Source: Bacillota bacterium
GTDB taxonomy: Bacteria > Sysuimicrobiota > Sysuimicrobiia > Sysuimicrobiales > Segetimicrobiaceae
DNA length: 44,801 bases
Direction: 5' to 3'
Assembly: GCA_021324975.1 (NCBI GenBank)
Contig: JAJPIA010000078.1
Location: 1 to 44,801 of the forward strand
Part shown: positions 24,792 through 42,230 of the stretch, piece by piece
How positions within the stretch are numbered: the first letter of the stretch is position 1
How the letters are laid out: each line of letters begins with the position of its first letter
The notes under the pieces: generated by a model
What the model was told of the DNA's origin: nothing
The model's database searches: none
The model's input: only the letters and a program-made list of their open reading frames with translations
Made by a program: the position numbers and the translations under genes

Positions 24792-24821
24792 ATGACGCTC
24801 CGATAAGGCGCTTGGTATACT
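24792..24821 (+). promoter_or_regulatory. Putative promoter of the luciferase-like gene
   Basis: ATGACG (24792-24797), 18-bp spacer, TATACT (24816-24821). The -10 is close to consensus and the -35 is partial. The -10 lies inside the TTGGTAT-N8-ATACC element, so a bound regulator would block it. Confidence 0.45.
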
Positions 24822-24831
24822 CAAGAATACC
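24812..24831. promoter_or_regulatory. Candidate operator, site 1 (TTGGTAT-N8-ATACC)
   Basis: Inverted repeat TGGTAT/ATACCA with an 8-bp spacer, 134 bp upstream of the luciferase-like start and overlapping its likely -10. The same half-sites with the same spacing occur at 35558-35577 and, with one half-site change, at 42211-42230. The size and GTATAC-rich half-sites suit a FadR/FCD-type GntR dimer (inference). Confidence 0.55.
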
Positions 24832-24964
24832 AGCAGTTGCGTCGAGGATGGCCACCCCCGACGTGGCCGCCCTCATCGCGACCGGGCGGAGCGCTCCGCC
24901 GCCAGACGAGGGTCCGATCCGAGCGCACAGCGACAGGCCGTCAACGACGGGGGGATCACGAGGC

Positions 24965-25978
24965 ATGGCAATCCGCTTCGGTGCCGGCTTTCCCGGCTGC
25001 CGCGAGGGCACGGCATATCCAGTCGGATTTGTGAGCCCCGAGAACCTGACCACCTTCGCGCGCAGGGCCGAGGAACTCGGCTACTACTCGATCTGGTCCA
25101 ATGATCACCTGACGTCTCGGCAGGGTATCCGCGAGACACAGGCGGGCACTCCGAACTTCTATGAGCCGCTGGTCACCTACGCCAGCCTCGTCAATGTCAC
25201 GGAGCGGCTCCGCTTCATGCTCAGCACGATCGTCGTGCCCCAGCGCGACATCGTGCTCCTCGCGAAGCAGGTGGCCACGCTCGACCGGCTGAGCGGGGGC
25301 CGCGTCATGCTCGGCGTGGGCCTCGGCTCTAACCGGGAGGAATTCGAAGCGCTGCACCCCGCCCACAAACACGTCCACCGCGGCCGGTGGCTCGAAGAAG
25401 GCATCCGGGGTCTCCGCCTCCTCTTCGGGGACGCGCCCGCCAGCCTCCAAGGAGAGTACGTGCAGTTTGCGGGCGTCGAGCTGGCCCCGAAACCGAGCCA
25501 GGCGCCCTTTCCTGTGTACCTCGCGGCGCACAAGCCCGTCGGCCTACAACGGGTCGGCCGTCTGGCCGACGGGCTGATCCTGGCCGGACTCTCACCGGAG
25601 CGAGCCGGTCGGGCCTGGGACGCGGTGAAGGCCGCGGCGGCGGCGCACGGTAGGGATCCAAATGGGTTCAGCCTTCACGTGCAAACGTGGCTGACTTTCG
25701 GCGATGGCCAGCGGGACGCGGAGATCCGCGCCTTGCGCTCTCAACACCTCCGGAGAATGGCGGCGGAGACTCGCCGCTCCGAGGCCGACATCCTGGCCGG
25801 CTACCGTGCCGGCAACCTGCTCGGCACCCCGGCCGAGATCGTGGACCAGATTCGAGCATTTGAGGCCATCGGCGCGACGCACCTCGGCATCGTGTTTGTC
25901 GTGGACACGATGGAGGAGTTGCTGCACGATGTAGACGTCTTTGCGCGGAGCGTCATGCCGGCGTTTGCGGCAGCCTGA
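24965..25978 (+). CDS. LLM-class flavin-dependent oxidoreductase
   Basis: A 337-aa bacterial-luciferase-like TIM-barrel enzyme using reduced FMN or F420. Typical features are SPENLTTFARRAEELGYYS, IWSNDHL, STIVVPQRDIVLLAKQVATL, LSGGRVMLGVGLGSNREEFE and the C-terminal GTPAEIVDQIRAFEAIGATH. ATG 24965 opens the first strand (MAIRFGAGFPG). The Shine-Dalgarno is weak (GAGG close to the ATG, GGGGGA further up). Substrate unknown. The gene converges on the TcuB-like gene and has candidate operator site 1 upstream, linking it to the ALDH/GntR and DUF3830 promoters. Confidence 0.92.
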   Translation: MAIRFGAGFPGCREGTAYPVGFVSPENLTTFARRAEELGYYSIWSNDHLTSRQGIRETQAGTPNFYEPLVTYASLVNVTERLRFMLSTIVVPQRDIVLLAKQVATLDRLSGGRVMLGVGLGSNREEFEALHPAHKHVHRGRWLEEGIRGLRLLFGDAPASLQGEYVQFAGVELAPKPSQAPFPVYLAAHKPVGLQRVGRLADGLILAGLSPERAGRAWDAVKAAAAAHGRDPNGFSLHVQTWLTFGDGQRDAEIRALRSQHLRRMAAETRRSEADILAGYRAGNLLGTPAEIVDQIRAFEAIGATHLGIVFVVDTMEELLHDVDVFARSVMPAFAAA

Positions 25979-25989
25979 ACAACATGCAC

Positions 25990-26030
25990 CGCGCCGGCCC
26001 ATCGCCGGCCGGCCAAGCCCGGCCGGCGCG
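25990..26030. terminator. Bidirectional terminator-like inverted repeat
   Basis: CGCGCCGGCC (25990-25999) and GGCCGGCGCG (26021-26030) form a perfect 10-bp inverted repeat with a GC-rich loop that can itself pair. It fills the 52-bp gap between the convergent luciferase-like and TcuB-like stops. No T-run on either side. Confidence 0.5.
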
Positions 26031-27206
26031 CTACGGCTCCGCGGGGCGACCGTCTGAGTCGTGTTCCATCCGGCGGCGCACGAGCGCGAGGTATCGATAG
26101 ATCGCGTGAACGAATTTGCCATAAGGTGCCGTCACGAACAGCGCGGCCACGATCGCGAGGTGAATTACGAGGGTTGGGCCCAAGACGCGCGTGCTCCGCA
26201 GCGCCAGCGTAAGCAGGCCGCTCAGCGACGCCAGCCCAAGCGTGATCACGAACACGGCCTCGATGCCGGACATCGGGCCCGAGGCCGGCCGCCGGTCGCT
26301 CCGTCCCTTGGCAACGAGCATGCCCACCGCCCCGAGGATCATCGCCACGCCGCCGAGCGTCCCCAACACAACAGGGGCGCTCGCCAGCGGATACGGCGGA
26401 AGCCGCCCCAGCAGGTCCTGGTAGATCGCGGCAATCGTGGTGGAAGCCGCGGCAGCGAGAAAGCCGTAGAATACGAGGCTGTGCAGAACGGCACGGGCGC
26501 GCGACGGGTGCTCATCCGGGTACGGGCATCCGGGCCCGCCGCCGCGAAGCCACCGCAGCACCAGGACGTCCCACGCCGCCCCGAGGGCGGCGCGCGGCGA
26601 CGGGGCCCGGCCCTGCATGTCGATGTCGCGCCAGAACACGCGCGCGCCCGCCGCCCAGACGCCGAGCCAGTAGCAGAATAGTCCCAGCCCGGGGAGCACG
26701 ATCGCCCAGTACGGCACGATCTGGTAGAACGCGCCCGCGCCGCGCTGCGCGGTAAGCATCCGCGCGGGGCCGACGAGCCACAAGGCGAGTCCCACCACAA
26801 GCGCGGCCACGGCGCAGGCCGCGAGCACCTCCGGGGTCGCGGCGAACAAGCCCGCGCCGGTGCGCGGCCGGGCGTGTCTCCGGTAGCCGTCGCGCCGGAC
26901 TTCGGCGAGCGCCTGTGGAATGTTGATCCCAAACTCGTGGGGCGGGGCGTACATGCACGCGTAGTAGCACGCGCGGCAATCGTGGCATAAGTTGGCGAGG
27001 TAGGTGACGTCGCCCCGGGTCAGCGCCCGGCGGAGCTCGAGCGCCGGGTACACGGCACAGTAGCCCTCGCAGTACCGGCACGCGTTGCACACCGTGAGCT
27101 GACGCGCCGCTTCCTCGAAGACGCCGGCCTGGGACACGCTCGCCGCCTCTCGCACGACGAGCGGCCACACAGCGCCGTCAATCGTCGGTTTCCCGGTTGT
27201 GGGCAT
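26031..27206 (-). CDS. tcuB: TcuB/CobZ-like membrane electron-transfer protein
   Basis: A 391-aa protein resembling the tricarballylate utilisation protein TcuB (citrate utilisation protein B). Two iron-sulphur Cys sets lie near the N-terminus, CNACRYCEGYCAVYPA and CHDCRACYYACMYAPPHEFG, followed by about six hydrophobic segments with His residues suited to heme b. TcuB re-oxidises the flavin of the dehydrogenase TcuA and passes electrons to the quinone pool. No tcuA-like flavoprotein is adjacent, so its partner is unknown; the flavoproteins elsewhere in the window are DAO-type. ATG 27206 lacks a clear Shine-Dalgarno and lies close to a 16-bp palindrome. Confidence 0.88.
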   Translation of the reverse strand: MPTTGKPTIDGAVWPLVVREAASVSQAGVFEEAARQLTVCNACRYCEGYCAVYPALELRRALTRGDVTYLANLCHDCRACYYACMYAPPHEFGINIPQALAEVRRDGYRRHARPRTGAGLFAATPEVLAACAVAALVVGLALWLVGPARMLTAQRGAGAFYQIVPYWAIVLPGLGLFCYWLGVWAAGARVFWRDIDMQGRAPSPRAALGAAWDVLVLRWLRGGGPGCPYPDEHPSRARAVLHSLVFYGFLAAAASTTIAAIYQDLLGRLPPYPLASAPVVLGTLGGVAMILGAVGMLVAKGRSDRRPASGPMSGIEAVFVITLGLASLSGLLTLALRSTRVLGPTLVIHLAIVAALFVTAPYGKFVHAIYRYLALVRRRMEHDSDGRPAEP

Positions 27207-27221
27207 GGTGAGGATACTTTG

Positions 27222-27237
27222 GAATACGAACGTATTC
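27222..27237. promoter_or_regulatory. 16-bp palindrome in the tcuB / binding-protein divergent promoter
   Basis: GAATACG-AA-CGTATTC, a perfect 7-bp inverted repeat with a 2-bp centre, 16-31 bp upstream of the tcuB start. A compact operator for a dimeric regulator is the simplest reading. It differs from the TTGGTAT-N8-ATACC element. Confidence 0.5.
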
Positions 27238-27299
27238 TTCCTGTGTCGCTACCCGGGTCATTCGCGGGGCACCGGCCACGGGGGCCGGAGGAGACGCTG

Positions 27300-27326
27300 G
27301 ATGAGGTACTTTAGATGAGGTACCTC
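27300..27326. repeat. Short direct repeat with nested palindrome upstream of the orphan binding protein
   Basis: GATGAGGTAC occurs at 27300-27309 and again at 27314-27323 (14-bp period). The second copy continues into the palindrome GAGGTACCTC (27317-27326). It is about 100 bp before the start of the binding-protein gene and may be a regulator site, or chance. Confidence 0.35.
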
Positions 27327-27424
27327 CAGTGGAAGGAGTCCGGGAGCGAAAATGGAACCCGGCAGACATGGTGCTGGTGAGCGTGGACCGCTAAGAAATT
27401 CTGTGACGTAAGGGGGAGATCAGG

Positions 27425-29089
27425 ATGTCCTCGGTGTCCCAGCCGCGTCCGGAGCAACTCAGCCGGCGACGTCTCCTGCAGGGAGCCCTCGGTGTGGCCG
27501 GATCGGTCAGTGTCGCCAAACTCCTCGCCATCTATGGTGGCGGCGAGCTCACGCACGCCGTGGCGGCAGAGAGCGGGAAGAAAGGCGGCACCCTGGTCTC
27601 CATGGTCGTGGCCGAGCCCACGTCGATGGACATCGCCTCGGGGACGGGCCAGCACAATTATGCCGTGATGAGCAACGTCTTCGAAAACCTCCTCTATTGG
27701 GATGACAAGAGCTTGGCCGTCAAAGGCGGGTTGGCCGAGAGCTACGAGGTCTCGAAGGACGGTCTATTCTGGACCTTCAAGCTTCGCAAGGGCGTGCGAT
27801 TCCATGATGGAACAGAGATGGACGCGGAGGCAGTGAAATTCAGCTATGAGCGCGTGCTGGACGCGCAGAACGAATACTACAAACTGGGCCAACCCTTTCC
27901 TCTGATGGATTTCTGGTATGGGGCCATTGATCCGAGACGGACAATCGTACGTGACAAATACACGGTAACCCTGGCGCTGAAGTATCCGTATTCCCCGCTT
28001 GAGGATGCGCTGGCGTGGCCGGCCGCGGCGATCGTGAGCCCCACGGCGGTCAAGAAATACCGGGGTGCGTTCAGGGACCATCCGGTCGGGACCGGACCAT
28101 TCAAGTTCGACTCGTGGATCCACAATCAAAAGGTGACATTCACGCGCTTCGATGACTACTGGGGAGCTCGCGTACCGGAGGTAGGCGGAGCCTATCTCGA
28201 CAGCGTCGTCTTCCGGCCGATCGTTGAAGAGCAAACACGCGTCACTGAACTCCTGGCCGGCAACATTGACCTCGCCTACGATCTTCCTCCTGATAACGTG
28301 GCTCAGGTCAAAGGAAACCCGCGGGTTCAGTTTCTCGAGACGCCTCTGGGTCACGTGTGGTATCTGGTGTTCAACACGAAGGCCACGCCGACCAAGGATG
28401 TGAGAGTTCGGCGCGCGATCTCTTATGCCGTCGACAAGAAAGCGATTATCGCAGACATTCTCAAGGGCACCGGAGCGCCGACCACCGGTCCTGTTCCCTC
28501 GGTCATCAAATACGCATACAAAGAGGAACGATCGCTCTACGACCCCGCCAAGGCCAAGCAACTGCTACGGGAAGCCGGGTATCCGCACGGGTTCACGACA
28601 AAATTCTGGGTGCCGGAATCGGGCTCCGGGATGCAGTCGCCAAAGCCAATGGGCGAGGCGGTCCAGGCCATGCTACAGCAGGTCGGTGTTCGACTGCAGA
28701 TCCAGGTCTTCGAGTGGGGAGCCTATATTGCCCATTACGCAAAGGGCCTTCCGGACGACGTTGGAATGGCCGAATGCAGCTGGTTTACGATTGACGCGCA
28801 GAATATCCCACACCTCACCGTGACGTGCGCCACCGTATCCCCCAAGGGCTACAATGCCGGATACTATTGCAACCCGGCGGTGGACGACCTCCTCAAGCGA
28901 TTTTGGGCGACGCTGGACAAACCCAAGCAGGCGGACTTGATGGCCAAGCTGCAGGACATCGTGGCCCAGGATATCCCGAATGTGTACATCGACACGCAGC
29001 TCGACACGGCGGGGCTTTCGAAGAAGTTTACGGGATTCAGCCTCCATCCCTCACAGCTGCTGCGCTTCTGGAAGACACACTTGGCGTAA
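27425..29089 (+). CDS. Orphan family-5 extracellular solute-binding protein
   Basis: A 554-aa DppA/OppA-family binding protein with a Tat-type signal (SRRRLLQGALGVAGSVSVAK). Motifs are KGVRFHDGTEMDAEAVKFSY, DHPVGTGPFKFDSWIH, FDDYWGARVPEVGGAYLDS and VRVRRAISYAVDKKAII. GGGGGAG upstream supports ATG 27425. Unlike the other three binding proteins here it has no permease genes next to it: tcuB is divergent and the GntR gene convergent. Its codons use more A and T than its neighbours, which hints at separate acquisition. Confidence 0.92.
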   Translation: MSSVSQPRPEQLSRRRLLQGALGVAGSVSVAKLLAIYGGGELTHAVAAESGKKGGTLVSMVVAEPTSMDIASGTGQHNYAVMSNVFENLLYWDDKSLAVKGGLAESYEVSKDGLFWTFKLRKGVRFHDGTEMDAEAVKFSYERVLDAQNEYYKLGQPFPLMDFWYGAIDPRRTIVRDKYTVTLALKYPYSPLEDALAWPAAAIVSPTAVKKYRGAFRDHPVGTGPFKFDSWIHNQKVTFTRFDDYWGARVPEVGGAYLDSVVFRPIVEEQTRVTELLAGNIDLAYDLPPDNVAQVKGNPRVQFLETPLGHVWYLVFNTKATPTKDVRVRRAISYAVDKKAIIADILKGTGAPTTGPVPSVIKYAYKEERSLYDPAKAKQLLREAGYPHGFTTKFWVPESGSGMQSPKPMGEAVQAMLQQVGVRLQIQVFEWGAYIAHYAKGLPDDVGMAECSWFTIDAQNIPHLTVTCATVSPKGYNAGYYCNPAVDDLLKRFWATLDKPKQADLMAKLQDIVAQDIPNVYIDTQLDTAGLSKKFTGFSLHPSQLLRFWKTHLA

Positions 29090-29164
29090 TTCGTCTGACG
29101 TCACACGCCGGGCGCCCGGGATGCGCTGACGCTGCAGTGGCGCGGGAACCACGGTAGCTCGACG

Positions 29165-29929
29165 CTACGCGCCGCTCGCGGCCGTGCGGGGATGTTCCAG
29201 ATGATGGGCGGCCGCGTACATGGCGACCCGCACTTCCTTCGCGTGGGCCATGTGCTCTTGTCCGATACGTTCGGCGGCCTCGGGATCCCGGCGCCGGATC
29301 GCCTCGATCAGCGCTCGGTGCTCCGCCACGCTCTGCGCCCCGCGCGCCGGATCGGACAGCGTGGTGCGGCCCAGGCGTTGCACGAAGTCATGCAGCCGCG
29401 TGGTCAGGGCGGTCAGCCGCGAGTTCTTGGCGGCACGGCACAACTCATCGTGAAAGCGCGCGTTGAGGATCGTCATCGCATCGACGTCGCCGCGTGCCAG
29501 GGCCGCTTCGATCTGCTCCTCGATGTGGTGCATGACCGTCAGATCGCTCTCCGTCGCGACCTTGGCGGCGAGCCGCGCCGCGACCCCCTCGAGCGCGACG
29601 CGCAGGACGTAGATGTCCTCGATGTCCTGGAGGGTCAGCGGGGCGACGACAAAGCCCTGCCGCGGGTCGCTGCTGATGAAGCCCTCCGAGTTGAGCCGCT
29701 GCAACGCCGCGCGCACCGGGGTGCGGCTGACGCCGAGCGCGTCCGCGAGTTGCCGCTCCTGCAGCCGCTCCCCGTCGTGGAGCAACCCGCGAAAGATCAC
29801 CTCGCGCACCGTGCGATACACGCGCTCCGCGAGGTCACGCACCCGCGCGTGGCGGCGGTACACGTCTGCGAACTGGGTCCGGCGGGCAGGCGCTTCTCGC
29901 GGCACCGGGGACCGTTTGGGCCTAGGCAC
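29165..29929 (-). CDS. GntR-family regulator with FCD domain (distal gene of ALDH operon)
   Basis: A 254-aa repressor-type protein. The winged helix-turn-helix lies at about residues 35-95 (RLQERQLADALGVSRTPVRA). The all-helical FCD ligand domain follows, with metal-site residues in ILNARFHDEL, EHRALIEAIRRRD and EHMAHAKEV. FadR/FCD regulators respond to carboxylic acid ligands such as pyruvate, lactate, gluconate or dicarboxylates. It is downstream of the DppC gene at 30019 (90-nt gap) on the same strand and may regulate its own operon. The ATG at 29929 gives the long basic N-terminus; a shorter start is possible. Confidence 0.92.
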   Translation of the reverse strand: MPRPKRSPVPREAPARRTQFADVYRRHARVRDLAERVYRTVREVIFRGLLHDGERLQERQLADALGVSRTPVRAALQRLNSEGFISSDPRQGFVVAPLTLQDIEDIYVLRVALEGVAARLAAKVATESDLTVMHHIEEQIEAALARGDVDAMTILNARFHDELCRAAKNSRLTALTTRLHDFVQRLGRTTLSDPARGAQSVAEHRALIEAIRRRDPEAAERIGQEHMAHAKEVRVAMYAAAHHLEHPRTAASGA

Positions 29930-30018: not shown

Positions 30019-30903
30019 CTACATGCGATCGCGCTGGACGACCCGGCGGGCGCCTTCCCCCGCGGGGTAAAAGCCGAGCACCGTCACAAAAACCGCGACC
30101 CCGGCCGCGAGCGACGGCCAGGGCGTGATGGCGAGGTACGAGTACCCTTCCTGCAGGATCCGGCCCCAACTCGGGGCCGGCGGCGGCGTCCCGAAGCCGA
30201 GAAAGGACAGGCTCGCCTCCGTGAGAATCGCCCCGCCCATGTAGATCGCGCCGAGGACCGCCACGAGGTCGAGAACGTTGGGAATGACGTGGCGGGCGAT
30301 GATCCGGGAGCCACGCGCCCCGACCGCGACGGCGGCGATCATGAAGTCGCGCTCGCGGAGCGCCAGCACCTCGCCGCGAACGACGCGGGCCAGCGCCGGC
30401 ATGATCGTGACCCCCAGCGCGACGATGACGTTGCCGACGCCCGCGCCCAGCAGGGCCCGAATCACGAGCGCCAGCACCAGCGACGGGAACACGAGCACGA
30501 GGTCCGCCAGCCTCATGAGCAGATACCCCGACGGCCCGCCGGAGAAGCCGCTCGCCAGGCCCCATGGGAGCCCGCCGAGGGTACCGAGGGCGACGGCGCC
30601 CAGGCCGACGACAAGCGACAACCGCGCCCCGTAGATATCCTGGCTGAGGTTGTCCCGGCCGAGATCATCCGTCCCAAGCGGAAACGCCCGTGTCGGACCC
30701 TCCAGCGTGTGGTTCGGGTGGATGGCCAACGGGTCATAGGGGGCGAGCGCCGGCGCGGCGATCGCCACGATCGTCATCGCGATGCTCAGCACCGTGCCGG
30801 CCGCAAGCGCGCGATTACGCCCGAGCACGCGCCACCGCGCGGTTCGCAGGCCGGCCGCCGGCCGGCCCGCGAGCACACCTCGAGCGGCCTCCAGGTTACC
30901 CAT
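30019..30903 (-). CDS. Dpp/Opp-type permease (DppC family), ALDH/DUF3830 operon
   Basis: A 294-aa inner-membrane protein. The DppC hallmark is FPLGTDDLGRDNLSQDIYGA; the EAA-loop region reads RDFMIAAVAVGARGSRIIAR, followed by TEASLSFLGFGTPPPAPSWG. It starts 8 bp inside the end of the DppB gene, so the two are coupled. The C-terminus deviates from the usual DGLRDxLDPR ending (GFYPAGEGARRVVQRDRM). No ATPase gene follows; the next gene is a GntR regulator. Confidence 0.92.
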   Translation of the reverse strand: MGNLEAARGVLAGRPAAGLRTARWRVLGRNRALAAGTVLSIAMTIVAIAAPALAPYDPLAIHPNHTLEGPTRAFPLGTDDLGRDNLSQDIYGARLSLVVGLGAVALGTLGGLPWGLASGFSGGPSGYLLMRLADLVLVFPSLVLALVIRALLGAGVGNVIVALGVTIMPALARVVRGEVLALRERDFMIAAVAVGARGSRIIARHVIPNVLDLVAVLGAIYMGGAILTEASLSFLGFGTPPPAPSWGRILQEGYSYLAITPWPSLAAGVAVFVTVLGFYPAGEGARRVVQRDRM

Positions 30904-31840
30904 ACGACACCCGGGGATCGAGCCAGGCGTAGGAGAGATCCACCGCGAGGTTGACGAACAGCACCCCGAACGTCATCAGCACCACGACCGCCTGCACCAC
31001 GGGGAAGTCGCGGCCGAGAATCGCGTCCACGAGCAAGCGCCCGACCCCGGGGAGCGCGAAGACGGTTTCCGTCACCACGGCACCGCCGAAGAGCCGGCCG
31101 AACTCGATGCCGAGCACGCTCAGGACCGGGATCAGGGAGTTGCGCAGCGCGTGCCGCACGAGCACGCGACGCTCGACGAGGCCCTTGGCCCTGGCGGTTT
31201 GCACATAGAGCGCGCCGAGCGTGGCGCGGAGGCTGGATTTGAGCACCAAGCTCAGGATCCCGACGTAGGCGACGCTGAGGGTAACGATCGGCAGCGCCAT
31301 GTGCTGCAGGTTGGCGCCCGGGTTCGGGAAGAGCGGCACGAACCCCCCGCTGGGGACCCAGCGCAGCGTGAGCGCAAAGACGAGGATCAGGCTGATGCCG
31401 AGCAGGAAGTTCGGCAGCGTCACGCCGATCACGCACAGGCTCGACACCCCGAAATCCGCCGCCGACCCGTACCACGCGCCGGCGACCGTCCCGAGCACCA
31501 GGGCCGCCGCGGCGGCCAGCGCCATCGACGCAAGGGTCAGTTCGGCGGTAGGCCCGAGCCGCTCCCGAATGGCCTGCGCCACCGGCTCCCGCGTCCGCAG
31601 CGAGCGGCCGAGATCGCCGCGCGCCGCGCCGCCGAGCCAGTCGAGGTACTGCACGTCCAGCGGCCGGTCGAGTCCTAACTCGTGCCGCAGCCTCGCGGCC
31701 GTCTGCGGGTCTGCGTCCCGGCCGAGGATGAGGAGCGTCGGATCTCCAAGGAGCCCGTGCAGGAGCCAGAACACCGCCATCGTGACCAGCACCGTCATCG
31801 GGATGACGGCGGCGATCCGGGCGATGATGTACCGCCACAC
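30896..31840 (-). CDS. Dpp/Opp-type permease (DppB family), ALDH/DUF3830 operon
   Basis: A 314-aa membrane protein with the DppB landmarks LGLDRPLDVQYLDWLGGAAR, TLRWVPSGGFVPLF, the EAA loop LYVQTARAKGLVERRVLVRH and the ending LSYAWLDPRVSYG. The start is GTG at 31840, only 6 nt after the binding-protein stop, consistent with one polycistronic message. Confidence 0.93.
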   Translation of the reverse strand: MWRYIIARIAAVIPMTVLVTMAVFWLLHGLLGDPTLLILGRDADPQTAARLRHELGLDRPLDVQYLDWLGGAARGDLGRSLRTREPVAQAIRERLGPTAELTLASMALAAAAALVLGTVAGAWYGSAADFGVSSLCVIGVTLPNFLLGISLILVFALTLRWVPSGGFVPLFPNPGANLQHMALPIVTLSVAYVGILSLVLKSSLRATLGALYVQTARAKGLVERRVLVRHALRNSLIPVLSVLGIEFGRLFGGAVVTETVFALPGVGRLLVDAILGRDFPVVQAVVVLMTFGVLFVNLAVDLSYAWLDPRVSYG

Positions 31841-31846
31841 GCGCGG

Positions 31847-33572: not shown

Positions 33573-33992
33573 TCAGGGAGCGAGGCGAATCACCAGGGGC
33601 TGCGGGCCGTGAAACAACACCGCGTCGCTTGCCTTCACGAGCGCTTCGAGATTGTCGGTGACCCTGCCGATCCGCGCGACATAGAGCTCGCCTTTGTCGT
33701 CGCGCCACTGGCTCGTGCCGTAGACGAACGCCACCTTGTACAAGTCGTACCGCGGATCGTCGTAGTAGATGATGTCGCCGACGTCCAGCCACGTGGCCCG
33801 GTTCTCGACGTCCCCAACCCGGAGTGGATAGTTCTTTTCAGTTCGCCACGCCGCGCCGGACCAACGCACGTGGATCGTCCGATCCGCCAGGGGAAGGTGC
33901 GCCAGCAGCGCGGCCACCGTCTTGGGCGCACGCTCGTCCCACAGCTCGCCGCCCGCCTTGGTCCCGCCGAGCTCGATCGCGATCTTGCGCAC
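33573..33992 (-). CDS. DUF3830 (cyclophilin-like) protein, subtype A/B
   Basis: A 139-aa single-domain protein. The DUF3830 pattern is visible in order: an N-terminal strand (KIAIELGG), APKTVAALLAHLPL, HVRWSGAAWRTEKNY, GDVENRATWLDVGDIIYYDD, VAFVYGTSQW and a last helix/strand (LVKASDAVLFHGPQPLVIRL). GTG start at 33992 has GAAGAGG upstream. It sits between ALDH and the binding-protein gene. The fold is related to cyclophilins, but no biochemical activity is established that I know of. Closest in this window to the protein at 40768 (shared WSGxAWRT and GDVEN segments). Confidence 0.88.
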   Translation of the reverse strand: MRKIAIELGGTKAGGELWDERAPKTVAALLAHLPLADRTIHVRWSGAAWRTEKNYPLRVGDVENRATWLDVGDIIYYDDPRYDLYKVAFVYGTSQWRDDKGELYVARIGRVTDNLEALVKASDAVLFHGPQPLVIRLAP

Positions 33993-34034: not shown

Positions 34035-35531
34035 CTACCGCATCACAAACGGATCCCGCGTCGCGGTGGACAGCTCGATCCAGACGCTCTTGACCTGCGT
34101 GTACTCGTCGATGGTCCCGTGCCAGTTCTCCCGCCCGTAGCCGCTGGCCTTGTACCCGCCGAACGGCGACGCGGGGGACACGGCCCGATACGTGTTCACC
34201 CACACCGTCCCCGCCTCCAATGCGCGCGCCACGCGGTGGGCGCGCTGGAGATCCCGCGTCCACACGCCGGCCGCCAGCCCGTACGGCACGCTGTTGGCGG
34301 TGGCAATGGCGTCCTCTTCGGTGGCAAACCGAACGGCCGCCAGCACGGGGCCAAAGATCTCCTCCTGAGCGATGCGGCTCGTGTTCGCAACATTCGTGAA
34401 GATCGTCGGCTCGAAATAAAACCCGCCGCCGAGCGCCGGGTCATCCGGCGAGTCGCCGCCCCATGCGACCGCCGCCCCTTCGTCGATGCCCAACTCCACA
34501 TACTGCTTGATCTTGTCGAGCTGGGCCCGCGTGGCCGCCGGTCCCATCTCCGTCTCCCAGTCGAGCGGGTCTCCGAGCTTGATCCGCTTGGCGCGCTCCA
34601 CGAGGTGGCCCACGAGCTCATCGTGCACCCGCGCATGGGCGAGCAGGCGCGATCCCGCGATGCAGGTCTGCCCCGACGCGGCGAAGATCCCGGCGATCAC
34701 GCCGTTCATCGCCGCGTCGAGCGGGGCGTCGTCGAAGACGATGTTGGGCGACTTCCCGCCGAGCTCGAGCGTCAGCCGGGCGAGATTCTGCGCCGTCCCC
34801 CGGATGATGGCCCGGGCCGTCTCCGTGCCGCCCGTAAAGCTCACCTTGGCCACGCCCGGGTGGGAGACGAGCGCCGCGCCGGCCTGCGGACCGTATCCCG
34901 TCACGACGTTCACCACGCCGTCCGGGAACCCCACCTCCTTCATCAGCCGGACGAGCTCGAGGGCCGTGATCGGCGTCGTGTCGGCCGGCTTCAGCACAAC
35001 CGTGTTGCCGGCGGCGAGCGCCGGCGCGAGCTTCCAGGTCGCCAGCAGGAGCGGCGAGTTCCACGGGACGATCATCGCCACGACGCCGAGCGGCTCCCGG
35101 AGCGTGTAGTTCAGCACGGAGGTCTTTTCCAGCGGGATCGTCTCGCCGAAGATCTTGTCCGCCGCCCCGGCGAAGTAGTGAAACCAGTTCGGGATGACGT
35201 TCATCTGGGCGGCCGTCTCGCGGATGATCTTACCGTTGGCCCTGGTCTCGAGCTCGGCCAAGCGCTTGGCGTCCTGCTTGATGCGCTCCGCCAGCCGATG
35301 CAACAACTCCGCCCTGGCCATCGGCGAGATCTCGCGCCAGGCCGGATCGCGCAGCGCGCGGCGCGCCGCCGCCACGGCGCGATCGATGTCCACGGCCTCC
35401 GCCGCCGGGACCGACGCCCACGGCTTTCCCGTGGCGGGGTTGAGGATGTCCATCCACTTGTCGGCATCGCTCCCGACGAACTCGCCGCCGATCGCCATGC
35501 CGTACCGCTCGATCAGCTCAGGGCTCGCCAT
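34035..35531 (-). CDS. NAD(P)-dependent aldehyde dehydrogenase
   Basis: A 498-aa ALDH-superfamily enzyme oxidising an aldehyde to the carboxylic acid. NAD-binding and catalytic motifs are VPWNSPLLLATWKLAPALAA with VLKPAD, SFTGGTETARAI, LELGGKSPN (general-base Glu) and FAASGQTCIAGSR (nucleophile Cys), then EEIFGPVLAAVRF and the C-terminal SPFGGYKASGYGRE. ATG 35531 follows GGGGGA. First gene of the minus-strand operon that continues with DUF3830, binding protein, DppB, DppC and GntR. Candidate operator site 2 starts 27 bp upstream of the ATG. The physiological aldehyde is unknown. Confidence 0.95.
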   Translation of the reverse strand: MASPELIERYGMAIGGEFVGSDADKWMDILNPATGKPWASVPAAEAVDIDRAVAAARRALRDPAWREISPMARAELLHRLAERIKQDAKRLAELETRANGKIIRETAAQMNVIPNWFHYFAGAADKIFGETIPLEKTSVLNYTLREPLGVVAMIVPWNSPLLLATWKLAPALAAGNTVVLKPADTTPITALELVRLMKEVGFPDGVVNVVTGYGPQAGAALVSHPGVAKVSFTGGTETARAIIRGTAQNLARLTLELGGKSPNIVFDDAPLDAAMNGVIAGIFAASGQTCIAGSRLLAHARVHDELVGHLVERAKRIKLGDPLDWETEMGPAATRAQLDKIKQYVELGIDEGAAVAWGGDSPDDPALGGGFYFEPTIFTNVANTSRIAQEEIFGPVLAAVRFATEEDAIATANSVPYGLAAGVWTRDLQRAHRVARALEAGTVWVNTYRAVSPASPFGGYKASGYGRENWHGTIDEYTQVKSVWIELSTATRDPFVMR

Positions 35532-35557
35532 TGGGTCCCCCGATTACCGGCGGTACA

Positions 35558-35577
35558 TTGGTATTTGCTTGTATACC
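35558..35577. promoter_or_regulatory. Candidate operator, site 2 (TTGGTAT-N8-ATACC)
   Basis: Same half-sites and spacing as site 1, placed 27-46 bp upstream of the ALDH start and in the divergent gap with the GntR gene at 35810. The right half extends to TTGTATACC, like known FCD-GntR operators built on GTATAC cores (family knowledge). Autoregulation of the divergent pair by this GntR protein is the simplest hypothesis. Confidence 0.6.
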
Positions 35578-35809
35578 GATTCTACGGTTCTGGACGCCTC
35601 CGCGTTCATCCTCCCGCGGGCGCGTCGCGGTCCGCCCGGCCGGTGCGCTCCGTGCGCGGTCGGAGGGGACGCGTCCGCCGCCCGACGCCGCGCGGATTTG
35701 ACTTGCGCGAACGAGCATGGTATGCAAGAAAAAGCACCGGTGTACCACACGATGCGAGCTCGCCGAGTTGAGCGACGCGCGCCCGGCCTCGCGGGTGCAT
35801 GGAGTGACC

Positions 35810-36526
35810 ATGCCAGAGATGCACGCGCTGCAAGAACTGGCGTCCGAGCGACTCAAGCACGCCAAGCCAAAGGCGCTCGGCGAAGCCGTGTATCACACGC
35901 TGCGCGAAGCGATCATCCGCAACCTGCTGCCGCCCGGGACCGCGACGAACGAGCGGGCGCTCGCCGAGGCGATGCAGGTGAGCCGGACGCCGGTGCGCGA
36001 GGCCCTCCGGCAGCTCACGGTCGAGGGGTTCCTGACGAACGCCGCGCGGCAGGGGCTCGTCGTCACCGACTTGAGCCTCAAAGATATCGAGGAGATCTAT
36101 ATGATGCGGGCCGCGCTGGAGGGCGCGGCCGCGCGGGTGTCCGCGCAGATGATCTCCCCGAGCGAACTCGTGATCTTAGAGAACGTCTGCGCCCAGATGG
36201 CGGAGGCCACGGAGCAGAACGACATCGAACGGTTCCTGGCCCTGAACGGGCGATTCCACGAGTTCCTATGCAGCACGGCGCGCAACAAGCGCCTGACGGA
36301 GCAGGTGCTGCGGCTGTACGATGCCGTGCGGCCGATCTGCCGCGATTCGCTCGCGGAGCCGGCGCGGGCCCGCAAGTCGCTCCAGGAGCACGAGGCGCTT
36401 GTCGCCGCCATCCGGCGTCGCGATCCCGACGAGGCCGAACGGCTGGCGCGCGAGCACATGACCCAGGCGATGCTCGTGCGCATGCAGCTCCACCAGACAG
36501 AGCGTCTCGACCTCGTGCGTCGATGA
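35810..36526 (+). CDS. GntR-family regulator with FCD domain (divergent operon)
   Basis: A 238-aa protein. The helix-turn-helix reads TNERALAEAMQVSRTPVREA; the FCD domain has FLALNGRFHEFLC, EHEALVAAIRRRDPDEAERL and EHMTQAML, the usual metal/ligand residues. ATG 35810 has GGAG 5 nt upstream and begins MPEMHALQELAS; the frame is open to 35717, but that extension lacks a ribosome-binding site. Heads the plus-strand operon, overlapping the isochorismatase-like gene by four bases (ATGA). Probable regulator of both divergent operons through site 2 (inference). Confidence 0.93.
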   Translation: MPEMHALQELASERLKHAKPKALGEAVYHTLREAIIRNLLPPGTATNERALAEAMQVSRTPVREALRQLTVEGFLTNAARQGLVVTDLSLKDIEEIYMMRAALEGAAARVSAQMISPSELVILENVCAQMAEATEQNDIERFLALNGRFHEFLCSTARNKRLTEQVLRLYDAVRPICRDSLAEPARARKSLQEHEALVAAIRRRDPDEAERLAREHMTQAMLVRMQLHQTERLDLVRR

Positions 36527-37182
36527 ACGCCTGGGACGGACTCCTGGGCGCGGACGAATTGGAGGTGTACCGGCGCGCGGGTTACGGCCGGCTGCCGGCG
36601 GAGGGACGGCGGCCCGCGGTCCTGGTCGTGGACATGGAGTACAATTTCACGGGCGACAAGGCTGAACCGATCCTCGTGTCGATCGCCAAGTTCCGGAACA
36701 GCTGCGGCGAGACGGCGTGGCGCAGCATCCCGAAGATCGCGAGGCTGCTGCGGGCCGCACGCGCGCGCGGCGTGCCGGTCGTGTACACGCACGGGGTCCC
36801 GCAGCGCACGGGAGCGACGCGGCACGAGGCCCGCATGGGGACCGACATCGTGCGGGAGATCGCACCGCATCGCGGCGACCAAGTGTACCGGAAGTCAGGT
36901 GCGAGCGCGTTCTTCGGCACGCCCCTCCCCGGCTACCTCATCGGCCTCGGCGTGGACACGCTGGTCGTCGCCGGCTGCACCACGAGTGGGTGCGTTCGGG
37001 CATCCGTCGTGGACGCGCACGACTACCGGTTCCGCGTGATCGTCGTCGAGGAGTGCGTGTTCGACCGTGCCGTCACCCCCCACCGCCTGAACCTGTTCGA
37101 CATGGCGCAAAAGTACGCGCGGGTGCGCCCGCTCGCCGGCGTCGAAGCGTGGCTCCGTCGTACCCGTGTCGCCCCGGCCTGA
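36523..37182 (+). CDS. Isochorismatase-like cysteine hydrolase
   Basis: A 219-aa cysteine hydrolase. Catalytic triad candidates are Asp in AVLVVDMEYNFTG, Lys in VYRKSGASAFFGTPL and Cys in VVAGCTTSGCVRASVVDA. This branch contains N-carbamoyl-amino acid, nicotinamide and biuret-type amidohydrolases as well as true isochorismatases; with no siderophore genes around, amide hydrolysis is more likely. Length is normal for the family. Translation is coupled to the GntR gene by an ATGA overlap. The binding protein for the next importer follows after about 120 nt. Confidence 0.92.
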   Translation: MNAWDGLLGADELEVYRRAGYGRLPAEGRRPAVLVVDMEYNFTGDKAEPILVSIAKFRNSCGETAWRSIPKIARLLRAARARGVPVVYTHGVPQRTGATRHEARMGTDIVREIAPHRGDQVYRKSGASAFFGTPLPGYLIGLGVDTLVVAGCTTSGCVRASVVDAHDYRFRVIVVEECVFDRAVTPHRLNLFDMAQKYARVRPLAGVEAWLRRTRVAPA

Positions 37183-37301
37183 CCGGGGCGCCCACCCGCG
37201 CCACGCGTGCTCGGGGGCGGCAGGCCGCGCGGGATGCGCCGACCGACCCATCCGGGCGCGGGGCGGCCGCGCCGACGACCGGATACGGAGGTGCTGATCG
37301 C

Positions 37302-38852
37302 ATGCGTCGCCTGACTCGCCGCCGGCTGCTGGGCACCGCCGGCGCCGCCGCCCTTGCCCTCGCGAGATCCGAGCGTCGCGCGCGCGGTGCCGTCGCGGCG
37401 CCCACGAACGGCGGGACGCTGCGCGTCGGCATCACGGGAGGATGGTCCACGCTGGACCCGCCGCACTACACGAACGTGTCCGAGCGCCAGATCTTCTACT
37501 CCATCTATAGCCCGCTGTTTTCGCTGACCCCACAGTTCACGATTGGACCGGGCCTGGTGCAGTCGTGGAACGCCTCGCCGGACGGCCTGCGGCTCCGGTT
37601 CCAGTTGCAGCCGGGCGTCCGGTTTCATGACGGGACGCCGTGTGACGCCGCCGCGGTCAAGTTCAACATCGAGCGCATTCTCGACCCGGCCACCGGCTCC
37701 GCGTTCCGGACCATCCTCTCGCCGATCCGGGAGGTCCGCGTGGCGAACCCCGTGACCGTGGACCTCGCGCTGAGCCAACCCTTCACGCCGCTCTTGAGCT
37801 GGTTCACCGAGGGGCCGGGGTTCATGAGCTCACCGGACGCCGTTCGCAAGTGGGGCGCCCAGTACGGCCAGCACCCGGTCGGGACGGGCCCGTTTGCGTT
37901 CGCGGAGTGGGTCAAGGACGATCACATCACGCTCAAGCGGTTCCCGGGGTTCTGGCAACGGGGCCTGCCGCATTTGGACGGCGTCGTCTACCGGCCGTTG
38001 AACGACGAGACCGTGAAGATGGCGGACCTACGCGCGGGCAGCCTCGACCTCGTGGACACCGTGCCGGCGCAGCAGCAGCGCGCGATCCGCAACGACCAGC
38101 GATTCCAGACGATGGTCCTCCCGGGCACCCGCTGGCCAATGATCCGCTTGAACAACGCCGCGCCGCCGTTCAACAACAAGGCGCTCCGCCAGGCCGTCTC
38201 CTACGCGGTCGATCGCGTGCAGATCGTCACGGCGATCTACTTCGATCAGGCGCAGCCCGCCTATGGTCCAATCTCGCCGGTCTATCGCGAGTACTACGAT
38301 CCCGCGGTCTCCCGCTACGGCTACGGGCACGATCCTCAGAAGGCGCGGGCGAAGCTCGCGGAGGGGGGCCAGCCGAACGGGTTCAGCTTTACCCTCGAGA
38401 TCTTCACGTCGCCGGAGCAGACCCGGCTGGCGGAGCTGATCAAGGCGCACCTGGCCGAGGTCGGCATCACCGCGAACATCCAGGCCTACGAGCTCACGAC
38501 CCTGCAGGACCGCATCACGGGAAAACGCTACCAGGCCGTCATCGGCTCGTGGACCCCGCGGCCGGACATTGACGGCACGATGTACAACCACTTCAGCTCG
38601 CGCGGGAACGTGAACTCGATGTCCTATCACAATGCTACCGTCGACGACCTCCTCGAGCGAACCCGCACGGTCCCGAACGGGGCGGAGCGCATCCGCCTCT
38701 ACCGGCAGATCCAACGGCTCGTCGTGGAGGACGCCCCCTGGGTGTTCCTGATCTTCGAAAACCTGATGATCGGCATGTCGAAGGACGTGCACGGGCTCCC
38801 CGCGATCCCGGACGCGATCATGCGGTTCCAATCGACCTGGATCGGGGCGTGA
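37302..38852 (+). CDS. Family-5 solute-binding protein, GntR/isochorismatase operon
   Basis: A 516-aa DppA/OppA-family protein. A twin-Arg N-terminus (MRRLTRRRLLGTAGAAALAL) precedes a short Ala-rich signal. Motifs are VRFHDGTPCDAAAVKFNIER, HPVGTGPFAFAEWVKDDHIT and KALRQAVSYAVDRVQIVTAI. GGAGG lies about 10 nt before ATG 37302. It is the binding component for the DppB/DppC pair directly downstream. It resembles the binding protein of the divergent operon in overall order, suggesting related ligands; identity cannot be measured here. Confidence 0.93.
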   Translation: MRRLTRRRLLGTAGAAALALARSERRARGAVAAPTNGGTLRVGITGGWSTLDPPHYTNVSERQIFYSIYSPLFSLTPQFTIGPGLVQSWNASPDGLRLRFQLQPGVRFHDGTPCDAAAVKFNIERILDPATGSAFRTILSPIREVRVANPVTVDLALSQPFTPLLSWFTEGPGFMSSPDAVRKWGAQYGQHPVGTGPFAFAEWVKDDHITLKRFPGFWQRGLPHLDGVVYRPLNDETVKMADLRAGSLDLVDTVPAQQQRAIRNDQRFQTMVLPGTRWPMIRLNNAAPPFNNKALRQAVSYAVDRVQIVTAIYFDQAQPAYGPISPVYREYYDPAVSRYGYGHDPQKARAKLAEGGQPNGFSFTLEIFTSPEQTRLAELIKAHLAEVGITANIQAYELTTLQDRITGKRYQAVIGSWTPRPDIDGTMYNHFSSRGNVNSMSYHNATVDDLLERTRTVPNGAERIRLYRQIQRLVVEDAPWVFLIFENLMIGMSKDVHGLPAIPDAIMRFQSTWIGA

Positions 38853-38865
38853 TCGCCGGGGTTCG

Positions 38866-39813
38866 ATGCTGCGGTTCGTCGCTCACCGGGTGATCCTCAC
38901 CGTGCCGATGCTGGTGCTCCTCAGCATCGGCATCTTTCTGATGCTGCACCTGGCGCCGGGCGACGTGGTCACGCTCCTCCTGCCCGAAGACCTGCAGAAC
39001 CCCCAGGTCGCACGGGACCTGCGGCACCAGCTCGGCTTGGATCAACCGCTCTACGTGCAGTACTGGAGGTGGGTCACCCACGCGGCCCGGGGCGACCTGG
39101 GGTATTCGTACCGGTCGCGGGCGTACGTGGGGCCCGAGGTGGCGGCGCGGATACCCGTCACCTTCGAGCTCACCGCCCTGGCAATGGCCGGCGCCGTGGC
39201 CGCGGCGTTGCCGCTGGGCGTCATCGGGGCGTTGCGGCGCAATACCACGGTGGACGCGTTGATCTCCGGCTTCGCGGCCCTGGGGCTGGCGATGCCGGCG
39301 TTCTGGCTCGGCGTGCTGCTGATCCTCCTGTTTGCCGTGAACCTGCACTGGCTGCCGCCGTCGGGCTACGCGCCGCCCGGCCAGGGGATCGGCGCGAACC
39401 TCCGGCCCATGATTCTCCCCACGGTCACGCTCGGCATTCCATACGCGGCGGTCGTGCTGCGCTTCGTCAGGCTGAGCGTTCTGGACGTCGTCGAGGCGGA
39501 CTATGTCCGGACCGCGCGGGCCAAAGGCGTCGGGCGGTGGCGCGTGATCGTGTGGCACGTCCTCCGCGGCGCCCTCATCCCGATCATCACGGTGGTCGCG
39601 CTCGAGACGGGCCGGCTGCTCGGCGGCGCCGTGGTAACCGAGACGATCTTTTCGCTGCCGGGCGTGGGCCGGCTTGCCGTGGACTCGGTGCTCAGCCGGG
39701 ATCTCCCCATCCTGCAGGCCGTCACGCTGTTCATGGCGCTGGCGCTCATCGCGGCGAACTTCGCCGCCGACGTGCTGTACGCGTGGGCGGATCCCCGGGT
39801 CAAATACCAGTGA
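38866..39813 (+). CDS. Dpp/Opp-type permease (DppB family), GntR/isochorismatase operon
   Basis: A 315-aa membrane protein with the DppB first helix (MLRFVAHRVILTVPMLVLLS), LAPGDVVTLLLPED, LGLDQPLYVQYWRWV, the EAA loop DYVRTARAKGVGRWRVIVWH and the family ending VLYAWADPRVKYQ. It starts 13 nt after the binding-protein stop. Confidence 0.93.
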   Translation: MLRFVAHRVILTVPMLVLLSIGIFLMLHLAPGDVVTLLLPEDLQNPQVARDLRHQLGLDQPLYVQYWRWVTHAARGDLGYSYRSRAYVGPEVAARIPVTFELTALAMAGAVAAALPLGVIGALRRNTTVDALISGFAALGLAMPAFWLGVLLILLFAVNLHWLPPSGYAPPGQGIGANLRPMILPTVTLGIPYAAVVLRFVRLSVLDVVEADYVRTARAKGVGRWRVIVWHVLRGALIPIITVVALETGRLLGGAVVTETIFSLPGVGRLAVDSVLSRDLPILQAVTLFMALALIAANFAADVLYAWADPRVKYQ

Positions 39814-39849
39814 CGGGCGCTCCACTTAGCATGATGCGCGCTCCGCGTC

Positions 39850-40746
39850 ATGGGTGAGACGGCCGGCGCCGGGGCGCCCGCCAGGCCACGGGGGCTCCCC
39901 GGCCCGCGGACGGCAACCATGGGCATCGCCCGCCGGACCGCGCGCTACCGGCTGGTAGTGTGGGGCGGCACGATCGCCGCCGGCGTCGCCGCGGCCGTCC
40001 TGATCGGGCCCGCGCTCGACCGCGTCCCGCCCGACGCCGTGCACGTGGCGGCGATGATGCGCCCACCGTCGCCGGCCTGGCCGCTTGGCACAGATGACCT
40101 GGGGCGCGACATCTTGAGCCGCCTGCTTACCGGCGGCCGCGTGTCGCTCGGGGTCGGCCTCGCGGCGACGATCGCCGCCGCCGGCGTCGGGGTGCCGGCC
40201 GGGCTCCTGAGCGGCTTCTGGCGCGCGTGGGTCGACACGGCGCTGATGCGGCTGATGGACCTCCTGTTCTCATTTCCAACGATGGCGCTCGCGGTCGCGA
40301 TCGTGGGCGTGCTCGGACCCAGCCTGCGCGATGCGATCCTGGCGATCGCGGTGGTGGCCATGCCGCGGTTTGCGCGCCTCGTGCGCGGCCAGGTGCTGGC
40401 GCTGCGGGAACAGGACTTCATCGAGGCGGCCCGCGCCATCGGCGTGCCGGCCGGCGGCATCATCCGGCGGCACGTGCTACCAAACCTCCTCGGGCTCATC
40501 GTGATCGAAGGCACGCTGACCGTCAGCTTCGGCATCCTCACCGAAGCCTCGCTCTCGTTCCTCGGTCTCGGGGTACAGCCCCCGGCCGCGTCATGGGGCT
40601 CGATGCTGCGGTACGGCTACCCCTTCCTGGACCAGGCCCCCTGGATCTCGATCGTCCCCGGCATCGCGATCATGGTCACCATCCTCGGGCTCAACCTGCT
40701 CGGCGACGGCATCCGCGATCTGCTCGATCCTCGGCTGCGTCGATGA
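39850..40746 (+). CDS. Dpp/Opp-type permease (DppC family), GntR/isochorismatase operon
   Basis: A 298-aa membrane protein with WPLGTDDLGRDILSRLLTGG, the EAA-loop region QDFIEAARAIGVPAGGIIRR, TEASLSFLGLGVQPPAASWG and the canonical ending DGIRDLLDPRLRR. ATG 39850 gives a Pro/Ala-rich lead; ATG 39919 (MGIARRTARYR) would start nearer the first helix. Neither has a strong Shine-Dalgarno. Last gene of the plus-strand operon; it converges on the DUF3830 gene at 40768 with only 21 bp between stops. Confidence 0.92.
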   Translation: MGETAGAGAPARPRGLPGPRTATMGIARRTARYRLVVWGGTIAAGVAAAVLIGPALDRVPPDAVHVAAMMRPPSPAWPLGTDDLGRDILSRLLTGGRVSLGVGLAATIAAAGVGVPAGLLSGFWRAWVDTALMRLMDLLFSFPTMALAVAIVGVLGPSLRDAILAIAVVAMPRFARLVRGQVLALREQDFIEAARAIGVPAGGIIRRHVLPNLLGLIVIEGTLTVSFGILTEASLSFLGLGVQPPAASWGSMLRYGYPFLDQAPWISIVPGIAIMVTILGLNLLGDGIRDLLDPRLRR

Positions 40747-40767
40747 GGCACAGGTCGCGCGGTGAGG

Positions 40768-41178
40768 CTACTCGACGCGGCGCAGCTCCAGGGGCTGGGC
40801 CCCCTCCAGCCAGACGCGCTGGCTCGCGGCCACGAGTCCCTCGAGGTTCGCGGCGACCTTGCCGATTACGGACACGCGCAGATGCACCGCCAAGTCCGGG
40901 TGTCGCCACTCCGCCCGCCCGTATGCGAACCCGATCTTCTTCATCCGGGGATAGTAGATGACGTCGCCGGCCGCGAGCGTGTGCCCTTCGTTCTCGACGT
41001 CGCCGACCCCGATGTCGTAGTCGCCGTGGGTCCGCCACGCATCGCCCGACCATTTGACCTGGACGGCCCGGTCCGCGATCGGGAGCGCCGCCCAGAGGGC
41101 GGCGGTGGTCCGCGGGGCGGGTCCGTCGAGCAGGCGCACGCGGCCGGTTACGCCGGCCACCGTCATGGTGAGCTCCAC
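40768..41178 (-). CDS. DUF3830 (cyclophilin-like) protein, subtype A/B
   Basis: A 136-aa single domain: APRTTAALWAALPIADRAVQ, VKWSGDAWRTHGDYD, GDVENEGHTLAAGDVIYYPR, IGFAYGRAEWR and a final WLEGAQPLELRRVE. The start is GTG 41178, with AAGGAGG 6 nt upstream, one base after the stop of the tandem DUF3830 gene, so the two are co-translated. Most like the DUF3830 protein of the ALDH operon. Function unknown. Confidence 0.87.
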   Translation of the reverse strand: MELTMTVAGVTGRVRLLDGPAPRTTAALWAALPIADRAVQVKWSGDAWRTHGDYDIGVGDVENEGHTLAAGDVIYYPRMKKIGFAYGRAEWRHPDLAVHLRVSVIGKVAANLEGLVAASQRVWLEGAQPLELRRVE

Positions 41179-41179
41179 G

Positions 41180-42052
41180 CTACGCCTCCTTGCGTCGAAT
41201 CGTCATCGCCTTGGCGCCCTCGAACATGATGGCCGCGGCTTTTGTCCTGAGCGCGCTCCAGTCTCCCGTGATCCTGGCGAGCGGCGTGAGCGTCGAGACG
41301 CTCGTCGGCCCGCTCTGTTGGGCCTGCCCGTAGCAGATACGAATGCCCCGGTACGTCGGGTGGTAGTAGACGTACCCCGGCCAGTGCAGCACCTGCCCGT
41401 CTTCCGGCGCGTCGAGCTTGATCGGCACTTCGCCCCGCTCCCCGTCGGAGCCCCAGAAGCGCATCATCTGACCGCTCCACTTCGTGTTCGTGACCCGCCC
41501 CTTGAGCGGCAGGGCGTCCCAGAGCGCCTGCGCCGTTTTGGGCGCCGTCGCGTCGAGCAGCGACGCGACCGCCCTCGCCCCATCCATCTCGATCTCAATC
41601 TGACGGCCTGCGCCCGTCCGCGTGGGTGCCGGGGTCGCCGCCGCGCCCTCGGCCCGGCGAAACTGGATGGGCTTGGTCCCGTCCCACTGGAGCCGCTCGG
41701 CCGCCTTCGCCAGGCGCGGGATCTCCCCATCACGGATCACGCCAAGGGGCGTCAGGTACACGAAGCCCGCGGTTCCCCGGAATCGAGCGGCGCCATACGC
41801 GATCGCGATCTCCTTGATCGGCGGAAAGTAGACGATCTCGCCCGGGTACTGAAACGACTCGCGGCTCTCCATCTCCTCGACGGCGATGGGCGCGTGCTCG
41901 AACATCCGAAACATGTCGCCGCTGAGCTGCGCGTGCACCGCCCGGCCGCCAAACGGCAGCGCGCGCAGCAGCGCCTCCGTCGTCTTTGGTGCCGTCTCTG
42001 TAAACAGCGTCGCGTGAAACACCTCGTCGCCGAGCACTACCTCGATCCGCAT
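41180..42052 (-). CDS. Tandem DUF3830 protein (two cyclophilin-like domains)
   Basis: A 290-aa protein with two DUF3830 domains joined by an Ala/Pro/Thr linker at about residues 135-149. Domain 1 has APKTTEALLRALP, LSGDMFRMFEHAP, GEIVYFPPIKEIAIAYGAAR and AAERLQWDGTKP. Domain 2 has APKTAQALWDALP, RVTNTKWSGQMMRFW, YVYYHP, CYGQAQQSGPTS and FEGAKAMTIRR. ATG 42052 follows GGGAGGAAG; the frame extends to 42154, but without a better site. Domain 1 matches the partial gene at 44601 and domain 2 the gene at 44186, so this is a fused version of that pair. Candidate operator site 3 lies 159 bp upstream. Confidence 0.88.
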   Translation of the reverse strand: MRIEVVLGDEVFHATLFTETAPKTTEALLRALPFGGRAVHAQLSGDMFRMFEHAPIAVEEMESRESFQYPGEIVYFPPIKEIAIAYGAARFRGTAGFVYLTPLGVIRDGEIPRLAKAAERLQWDGTKPIQFRRAEGAAATPAPTRTGAGRQIEIEMDGARAVASLLDATAPKTAQALWDALPLKGRVTNTKWSGQMMRFWGSDGERGEVPIKLDAPEDGQVLHWPGYVYYHPTYRGIRICYGQAQQSGPTSVSTLTPLARITGDWSALRTKAAAIMFEGAKAMTIRRKEA

Positions 42053-42210
42053 CGTGGGCTTCCTCCCTTCGATCTCATTGCAGATTTCATTGCGCCGTTC
42101 TTCAACGACCCAAGGTGTTCGCGAGGGATTGCACCGGCTCAAGCCGGCCGGCACGGGCCGCGCTCACCTGCCCGCGGACCGGCCGCGAACCGGGACTGCA
42201 GTGTCTGGAA

Positions 42211-42230
42211 TTGGGATACCGCTGTATACC
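42211..42230. promoter_or_regulatory. Candidate operator, site 3 (TTGGGAT-N8-ATACC)
   Basis: Matches sites 1 and 2 in half-sites and 8-bp spacing except for one base in the left half. On the complementary strand sites 2 and 3 both begin GGTATACA and end CCAAT. It is 159 bp upstream of the tandem DUF3830 gene and probably overlaps or flanks its promoter. Confidence 0.5.

Follow-up and report, generated by a model that had tools for sequence, protein, structure and literature searches.

In a 44,801-nt stretch of a soil Bacillota genome of 4.43 Mb (the window, by which we mean the whole stretch of DNA that was analysed), genes for nutrient use that lie scattered are very probably turned on and off as a group by a neighbouring putative GntR-type repressor, to judge from one operator-like element that recurs ahead of them. 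The control system is of a familiar bacterial type and this example of it is new. The original prediction placed the same element at 24812, 35558 and 42211, and the letters read directly from the window match it at all three places: site 1 is TTGGTATACTCAAGAATACC, site 2 is TTGGTATTTGCTTGTATACC and site 3 is TTGGGATACCGCTGTATACC. To these we add a fourth putative operator, absent from that prediction, at the promoter of the GntR gene itself. The dyad of sites 1-3 reaches 22 bp.

24812..24833, + strand: putative operator 1, ahead of the luciferase-like (LLM) oxidoreductase gene, with boxes TGGTATACTC and AAGAATACCA whose centres are 10 bp apart; -10-like TATACT at 24816-24821, inside the left box
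35558..35579, - strand: putative operator 2, 27 bp upstream of the aldehyde dehydrogenase (ALDH) start
42211..42232, - strand: putative operator 3, upstream of the tandem DUF3830 gene
35718..35747, + strand: putative operator 4, at the GntR gene promoter; boxes TGGTATGCAA and CGGTGTACCA with centres 20 bp apart
35698..35726, + strand: GntR promoter, with -35 TTGACT at 35698-35703, a 17-bp spacer and -10 TATGCA at 35721-35726

The genes that these sites would serve are as follows, the extents of the operons being taken from gene order and strand.

24965..25978, + strand: luciferase-like monooxygenase-family (LLM) protein (TIGR03619 above cut-off), behind operator 1
34035..35531, - strand: ALDH, first gene behind operator 2
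33573-33992, - strand: single DUF3830 gene, behind operator 2, after ALDH
31847-33460, - strand: substrate-binding protein (SBP), behind operator 2
30896-31840 and 30019-30903, - strand: two permeases, behind operator 2
29165-29929, - strand: second FCD-type GntR (GntR-29165), final gene in the operator 2 unit
about 41180-42052, - strand: tandem DUF3830 gene, behind operator 3, its frame open to 42154
40768-41178, - strand: single DUF3830 gene, behind operator 3
35810..36526, + strand: FCD-type GntR regulator (GntR-35810), VanR-like, most likely the reader of the four operators
36523..37182, + strand: isochorismatase-like hydrolase, overlapping the GntR stop and in the same operon as GntR-35810
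37302..38852, + strand: ABC substrate-binding protein (SBP_bac_5), downstream of GntR-35810
38866-39813 and 39850-40746, + strand: two ABC permease genes

As originally described, sites 1-3 lie in non-coding DNA, which for site 3 rests on the likely DUF3830 start; this is most probably ATG 42052, because a 13-nt indel in the sister species falls within the stretch upstream of it. On the reverse strand, sites 2 and 3 both give GGTATACA...CCAAT, as stated. What had been missed is that orientation matches the genes: site 1 faces the + strand and sites 2 and 3 the - strand, so that all three share the gene-direction form tNGGTATAC-N5-6-ATACCA shortly upstream of a start (TTGGTATACTCAAGAATACCAG for site 1 on the + strand, TCGGTATACAAGCAAATACCAA and CTGGTATACAGCGGTATCCCAA for sites 2 and 3 on the - strand).

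Matches to the pattern with at most two mismatches number seven in the window against 1.02 expected, a count that none of 100 shuffles reached. We examined the genome by pattern searches as well, and across its 4.43 Mb the full 22-bp pattern, again at up to two mismatches, was found only at sites 1-3 and at one further place in a coding frame. Near-pattern matches on contigs C78 and C107 were dismissed, both lying in coding frames. A look-elsewhere control nevertheless found, in about 10% of random windows, some trio of inverted repeats that shared one fixed spacing and had three or more A/T in an arm. The window by itself is therefore merely suggestive: once post-hoc selection is allowed for, repetition within one window is not decisive, and it is cross-species conservation that settles the reality of the sites.

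Just three close genomes exist for this comparison. G002 (Bacillota MAG Centralia_MAG_47) is a second species of the same genus and G003 belongs to a sister genus; their orthologs of GntR-35810 are 95% and 80% identical, respectively. In G002, site 1 is identical at 21/22 positions as compared to 53% in flanking DNA, site 2 at 20/22 as compared to 74%, and site 3 at 20/22 as compared to 63%. Two of these lie on contig C94 and the third on C65, ahead of the DUF3830 ortholog. G003 keeps site 2, between ALDH and GntR. The element is thus retained upstream of orthologous genes in relatives, and we regard sites 1-3 as real elements and putative operators. In G002 an internal deletion has left only the first and last codons of ALDH (L049 8437-8640) with operator 2 intact, which there stands beside the ALDH remnant and fronts an SBP-permease operon. 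The luciferase-DUF3830 operon of G003 (contig C21) is without the element, though the GntR is present in that genome. G006, G007 and G009 carry the structural genes without a close GntR-35810 ortholog, and the regions taken from them hold no element; in a scan of the contigs of the genomes, the relatives found besides G002 were at no more than 37% identity, too distant for motif transfer. A match on contig C158 of G003 was dismissed as having no homology with the window, and a perfect match in G027 as lying inside a malate-synthase-like frame. Orthologs of the LLM and tandem DUF3830 genes are adjacent and co-directional with transporter genes in G003, G007 and G009; the genes behind sites 1 and 3 thus form one operon in sister genera, which provides independent support for a single regulon.

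The element makes most sense when re-read as two abutting 10-bp boxes of the FCD-GntR type, TKGTATACMA, a reading that the earlier work had missed. The distance between box centres is exactly 10 bp at each of sites 1-3, and at the GntR promoter it doubles to 20 bp. Strong single boxes number four in the 44.8 kb (TGGTATACTC, TTGTATACCG, CTGTATACCA and TGGTATGCAA), all within the four operators, and mononucleotide shuffles give an expectation of about 0.03 box pairs at 10-bp spacing per window. FCD operators carry TKGT/ACMA boxes with 2-3 nt from GT to AC, and by sequence the present boxes fall in the 2-nt class (PMC4494728). By inspection, the right-hand box of sites 1 and 2 is degenerate, with three to four mismatches, making simultaneous occupancy of both boxes uncertain there. 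A LysR-type (T-N11-A) reading was ruled out by the arm geometry. An exact single TKGTATACMA occurs twice in the genome, on C72, where it lies within an SBP coding frame, and on C118, where no operator context was found, so a lone box is no mark of regulation; neither was retained as an operator.

The fourth site emerged from an alignment of the ALDH-GntR gap, which contains a second conserved block, TTGACT-N17-TATGCA with TGGTATGCAAGAAAAAGCACCGGTGTACCA, at 35698-35747. Operator 4 is identical at 29/30 positions in G002 and 27/30 in G003 as compared to 52% in the flank, and its pattern, at zero or one mismatch, has a single match in the genome. Its arms are 18 bp apart rather than the 8 bp of sites 1-3, that is, one helical turn more. 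The -10 of the GntR promoter sits within the left box, and its -35, TTGACT, is conserved in three genomes; among the four promoters a good -35 hexamer is clear at this one only, and the single sigma-70-like match at site 1 is not above shuffle level. GntR-35810 is most likely autoregulated through this putative operator.

Alternatively, one dimer, of a GntR or of another family (e.g., TetR-like), might span the whole 20-bp palindrome TGGTAT-N8-ATACCA by its outer arms. The element is indeed a good 22-bp dyad, and across seven listed sites conservation of the outer arms TGG/CCA equals that of the cores. We nonetheless think this rather unlikely: at the GntR promoter the same arms stand 10 bp further apart, too far for a single rigid dimer to bridge; boxes of 10-12 bp are established targets of FCD regulators (PMC4494728, PMC7797058); and single good boxes with an intact GTATAC occur upstream of related GntR genes. 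The variant with 10 bp of added spacing favours two dimers bound side by side, as in NanR, over one that spans the dyad.

Box pairs of this kind recur in other genomes. G020 has two tandem GntR genes, each with a GTATAC-type box pair upstream at 20 bp; the GntR gene of G005 is preceded by ATATACTGAAGTATAC, with boxes at 10 bp; and in the g17 genus the boxes upstream of GntR are 41 bp apart. This leads us to speculate, tentatively and as a possibility that we would not yet favour, that this GntR clade uses a spacing code in which identical 10-bp boxes are spaced by full turns of the helix (10, 20 and about 41 bp) across operators and genomes. If true, cooperative dimer assemblies on one face of the DNA could repress structural genes (10 bp) and the regulator (20 bp) to different degrees, and the arrangement would be an inverted-repeat counterpart of the NanR assembly. 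Traces of three abutting 10-bp boxes are seen at L023 (about 2293-2322) and L082 (6397-6426); the NanR operator likewise has three repeats.

As to the protein that reads the boxes, the original prediction joined three transcription units 17 kb apart into one putative regulon under GntR-35810, and this remains the best reading, supported by the conserved sites, the operon linkage, the boxes at the gene's own promoter and the GTATAC target of a relative. Both GntR proteins of the window are of the FCD subfamily, with PF00392 and PF07729 well above cut-offs, and the predicted structure of GntR-35810 has an all-helical C-terminal domain (pLDDT 90). Its nearest solved relative by sequence in the PDB, and its top fold match, is Atu1419 (about 30% identity), an FCD/PF07729 GntR of the VanR group from Agrobacterium fabrum (PDB 6z74, 6za0, 6za3, 6za7 and 6zab; PMC7797058). 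Atu1419, a tetramer, represses a catabolic pathway as well as its own gene from a proven 10-mer operator, ATGTATACAT, with a GTATAC core overlapping -10 boxes (PMC7797058). By alignment, its DNA contacts E34, R45 (base-contacting), T46 and R49 correspond to E48, R59, T60 and R63 of GntR-35810, and its metal ligands N137, H141, H192 and H214 to N146, H150, H194 and H216, so that the residues of both functions are kept. The likeness extends to the 10-bp GTATAC-core box overlapping the -10 and to a predicted role as autoregulated repressor of a catabolic cluster. Unlike here, where boxes are 10 or 20 bp apart, the palindromes of Atu1419 lie 109-190 bp apart and are bridged by the tetramer through looping. 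We consider it likely, by analogy and from the residues and sites described, that GntR-35810 represses this cluster and its own gene and is released by a ligand.

A further alternative has the second FCD GntR, GntR-29165, bind the operators, alone or together with GntR-35810; encoded at the end of the operator 2 unit, it would then be a feedback regulator. The two proteins are 46% identical and share the SRTPVR recognition helix, and a tree groups GntR-29165 and the GntRs of G005 and G020 with the GntR-35810 orthologs (support 92/80). These nearest non-orthologous GntRs, the closest relatives of GntR-29165, also have GTATAC-type double boxes upstream. We hold this option to be improbable: G003 keeps site 2, the autoregulatory operator and the GntR-35810 ortholog, and has no GntR-29165 ortholog (the best matches there being the GntR-35810 ortholog at 48% and then one at 34%), and GntR-35810, not GntR-29165, has an operator at its own promoter. 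That the likeness reflects nothing but a shared -10 sequence (TATACT/TATACA) and chance is very improbable, for while the conserved GGTATAC holds a -10-like hexamer at all sites and inverted-repeat trios are not rare in random windows, the right arm is conserved too, far from any -10 role, sites 1-3 are islands of near-identity in diverged DNA, and other full-pattern matches in the genome are rare, both of those inspected (C78 and C107) lying in coding frames.

Among other known systems, NanR of Escherichia coli is likewise an FCD GntR, whose GGTATA boxes follow one another at a constant short distance; several dimers bind its (GGTATA)3 operator cooperatively (PMC8012715). Its boxes are direct repeats as compared to the inverted dyad seen here, and its cooperativity needs a 32-residue N-terminal extension, where about 20 residues precede the winged helix of GntR-35810 (Pfam match). 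With this dyad, this short N-terminus, a distant relationship (E 3.7e-7) and 69 bits against a cut-off of 260 in the NCBIfam NanR model, the protein is not a NanR. The best NCBIfam model for both GntR proteins of the window is phnR_burk (TIGR03338), and they fall outside that family too, at 140.6 and 118.8 bits against a cut-off of 271.5; McbR/YncC (PDB 4p9f) is a close fold match. FadR-subfamily operators with a 2-nt GT-AC spacing include those of UxuR, GntR, MdcY, PrpR and HpxS (Suvorova 2015, PMC4494728). Such operators share with ours the TKGT..ACMA boxes, the GT-AT-AC core and a divergent regulator/catabolic layout with a separate site for each side, and differ in being described as single palindromes per site, whereas here two boxes abut in helical register (PMC4494728).

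In the mechanism that we infer, which covers binding by GntR-35810, two-box occupancy, repression and a ligand, this FCD (VanR-like) winged-helix protein would be the reader of the element, and each operator would be a pair of 10-bp TKGTATACMA boxes. At spacings of 10 bp (structural promoters) or 20 bp (its own promoter) the two boxes would be exposed on one side of the helix. With dimers, or a dimer of dimers, bound to the boxes, the -10 hexamer contained in one of them would be covered and RNA polymerase blocked; we favour repression because the sites overlap -10 sequences and because of the Atu1419 precedent. A small ligand, probably a carboxylate, taken up together with a metal by the FCD domain, might then release the protein, with joint induction of the LLM oxidoreductase gene, the unit of ALDH, DUF3830 and transporter genes, the tandem DUF3830 unit and the operon of GntR, hydrolase and transporter genes, the last implying negative autoregulation of GntR-35810.

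The conserved putative operator is real as a sequence element and a local regulon is credible from the sequence comparisons; their interest lies in what they would connect. The regulon would join an LLM oxidoreductase, an ALDH, an isochorismatase-like hydrolase, two ABC uptake systems and three DUF3830 genes, and membership would make the substrate and role of the uncharacterised DUF3830 testable through the ligand or inducer of the GntR; our literature search on DUF3830 found no paper. It would also show an FCD regulator whose double boxes keep helical register at two different spacings, a good case for the question of how spacing sets cooperativity.

There is also one weaker candidate.

27209..27230, no strand assigned: weak candidate site GGATACTTTGGAATACG, immediately before the tcuB-like gene, low confidence

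It scores 14.8 as compared to 28-33 for the true sites and fits another palindrome, GAATACGAACGTATTC. The surrounding GGATACTTTGGAATACGAACGTATTC at 27209-27244, which immediately precedes the start of the tcuB-like gene, has 32/36 positions conserved in G002 and contains GAATACG-AA-CGTATTC; this palindrome may belong to another regulator. The tcuB-like gene itself (26031-27206, - strand) scores 346 bits against a cut-off of 246.6 for TIGR02484 (TcuB/CitB, tricarballylate utilisation 4Fe-4S), has no Pfam match, and stands between the luciferase-like gene and an SBP gene at 27425-29089. That SBP gene is missing at the matching place in G002, where 193 bp rather than 1914 bp separate the conserved flanks, and was thus gained or lost within the genus. 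A frame at 23345-24154 (+ strand), without a Pfam or NCBIfam match, is conserved in G002 as two pieces at 69-73% protein identity. In another part of the genome from which the window comes, at C72:9736-12002, a second cluster holds several DUF3830 copies together with a luciferase-like gene (33% identical).
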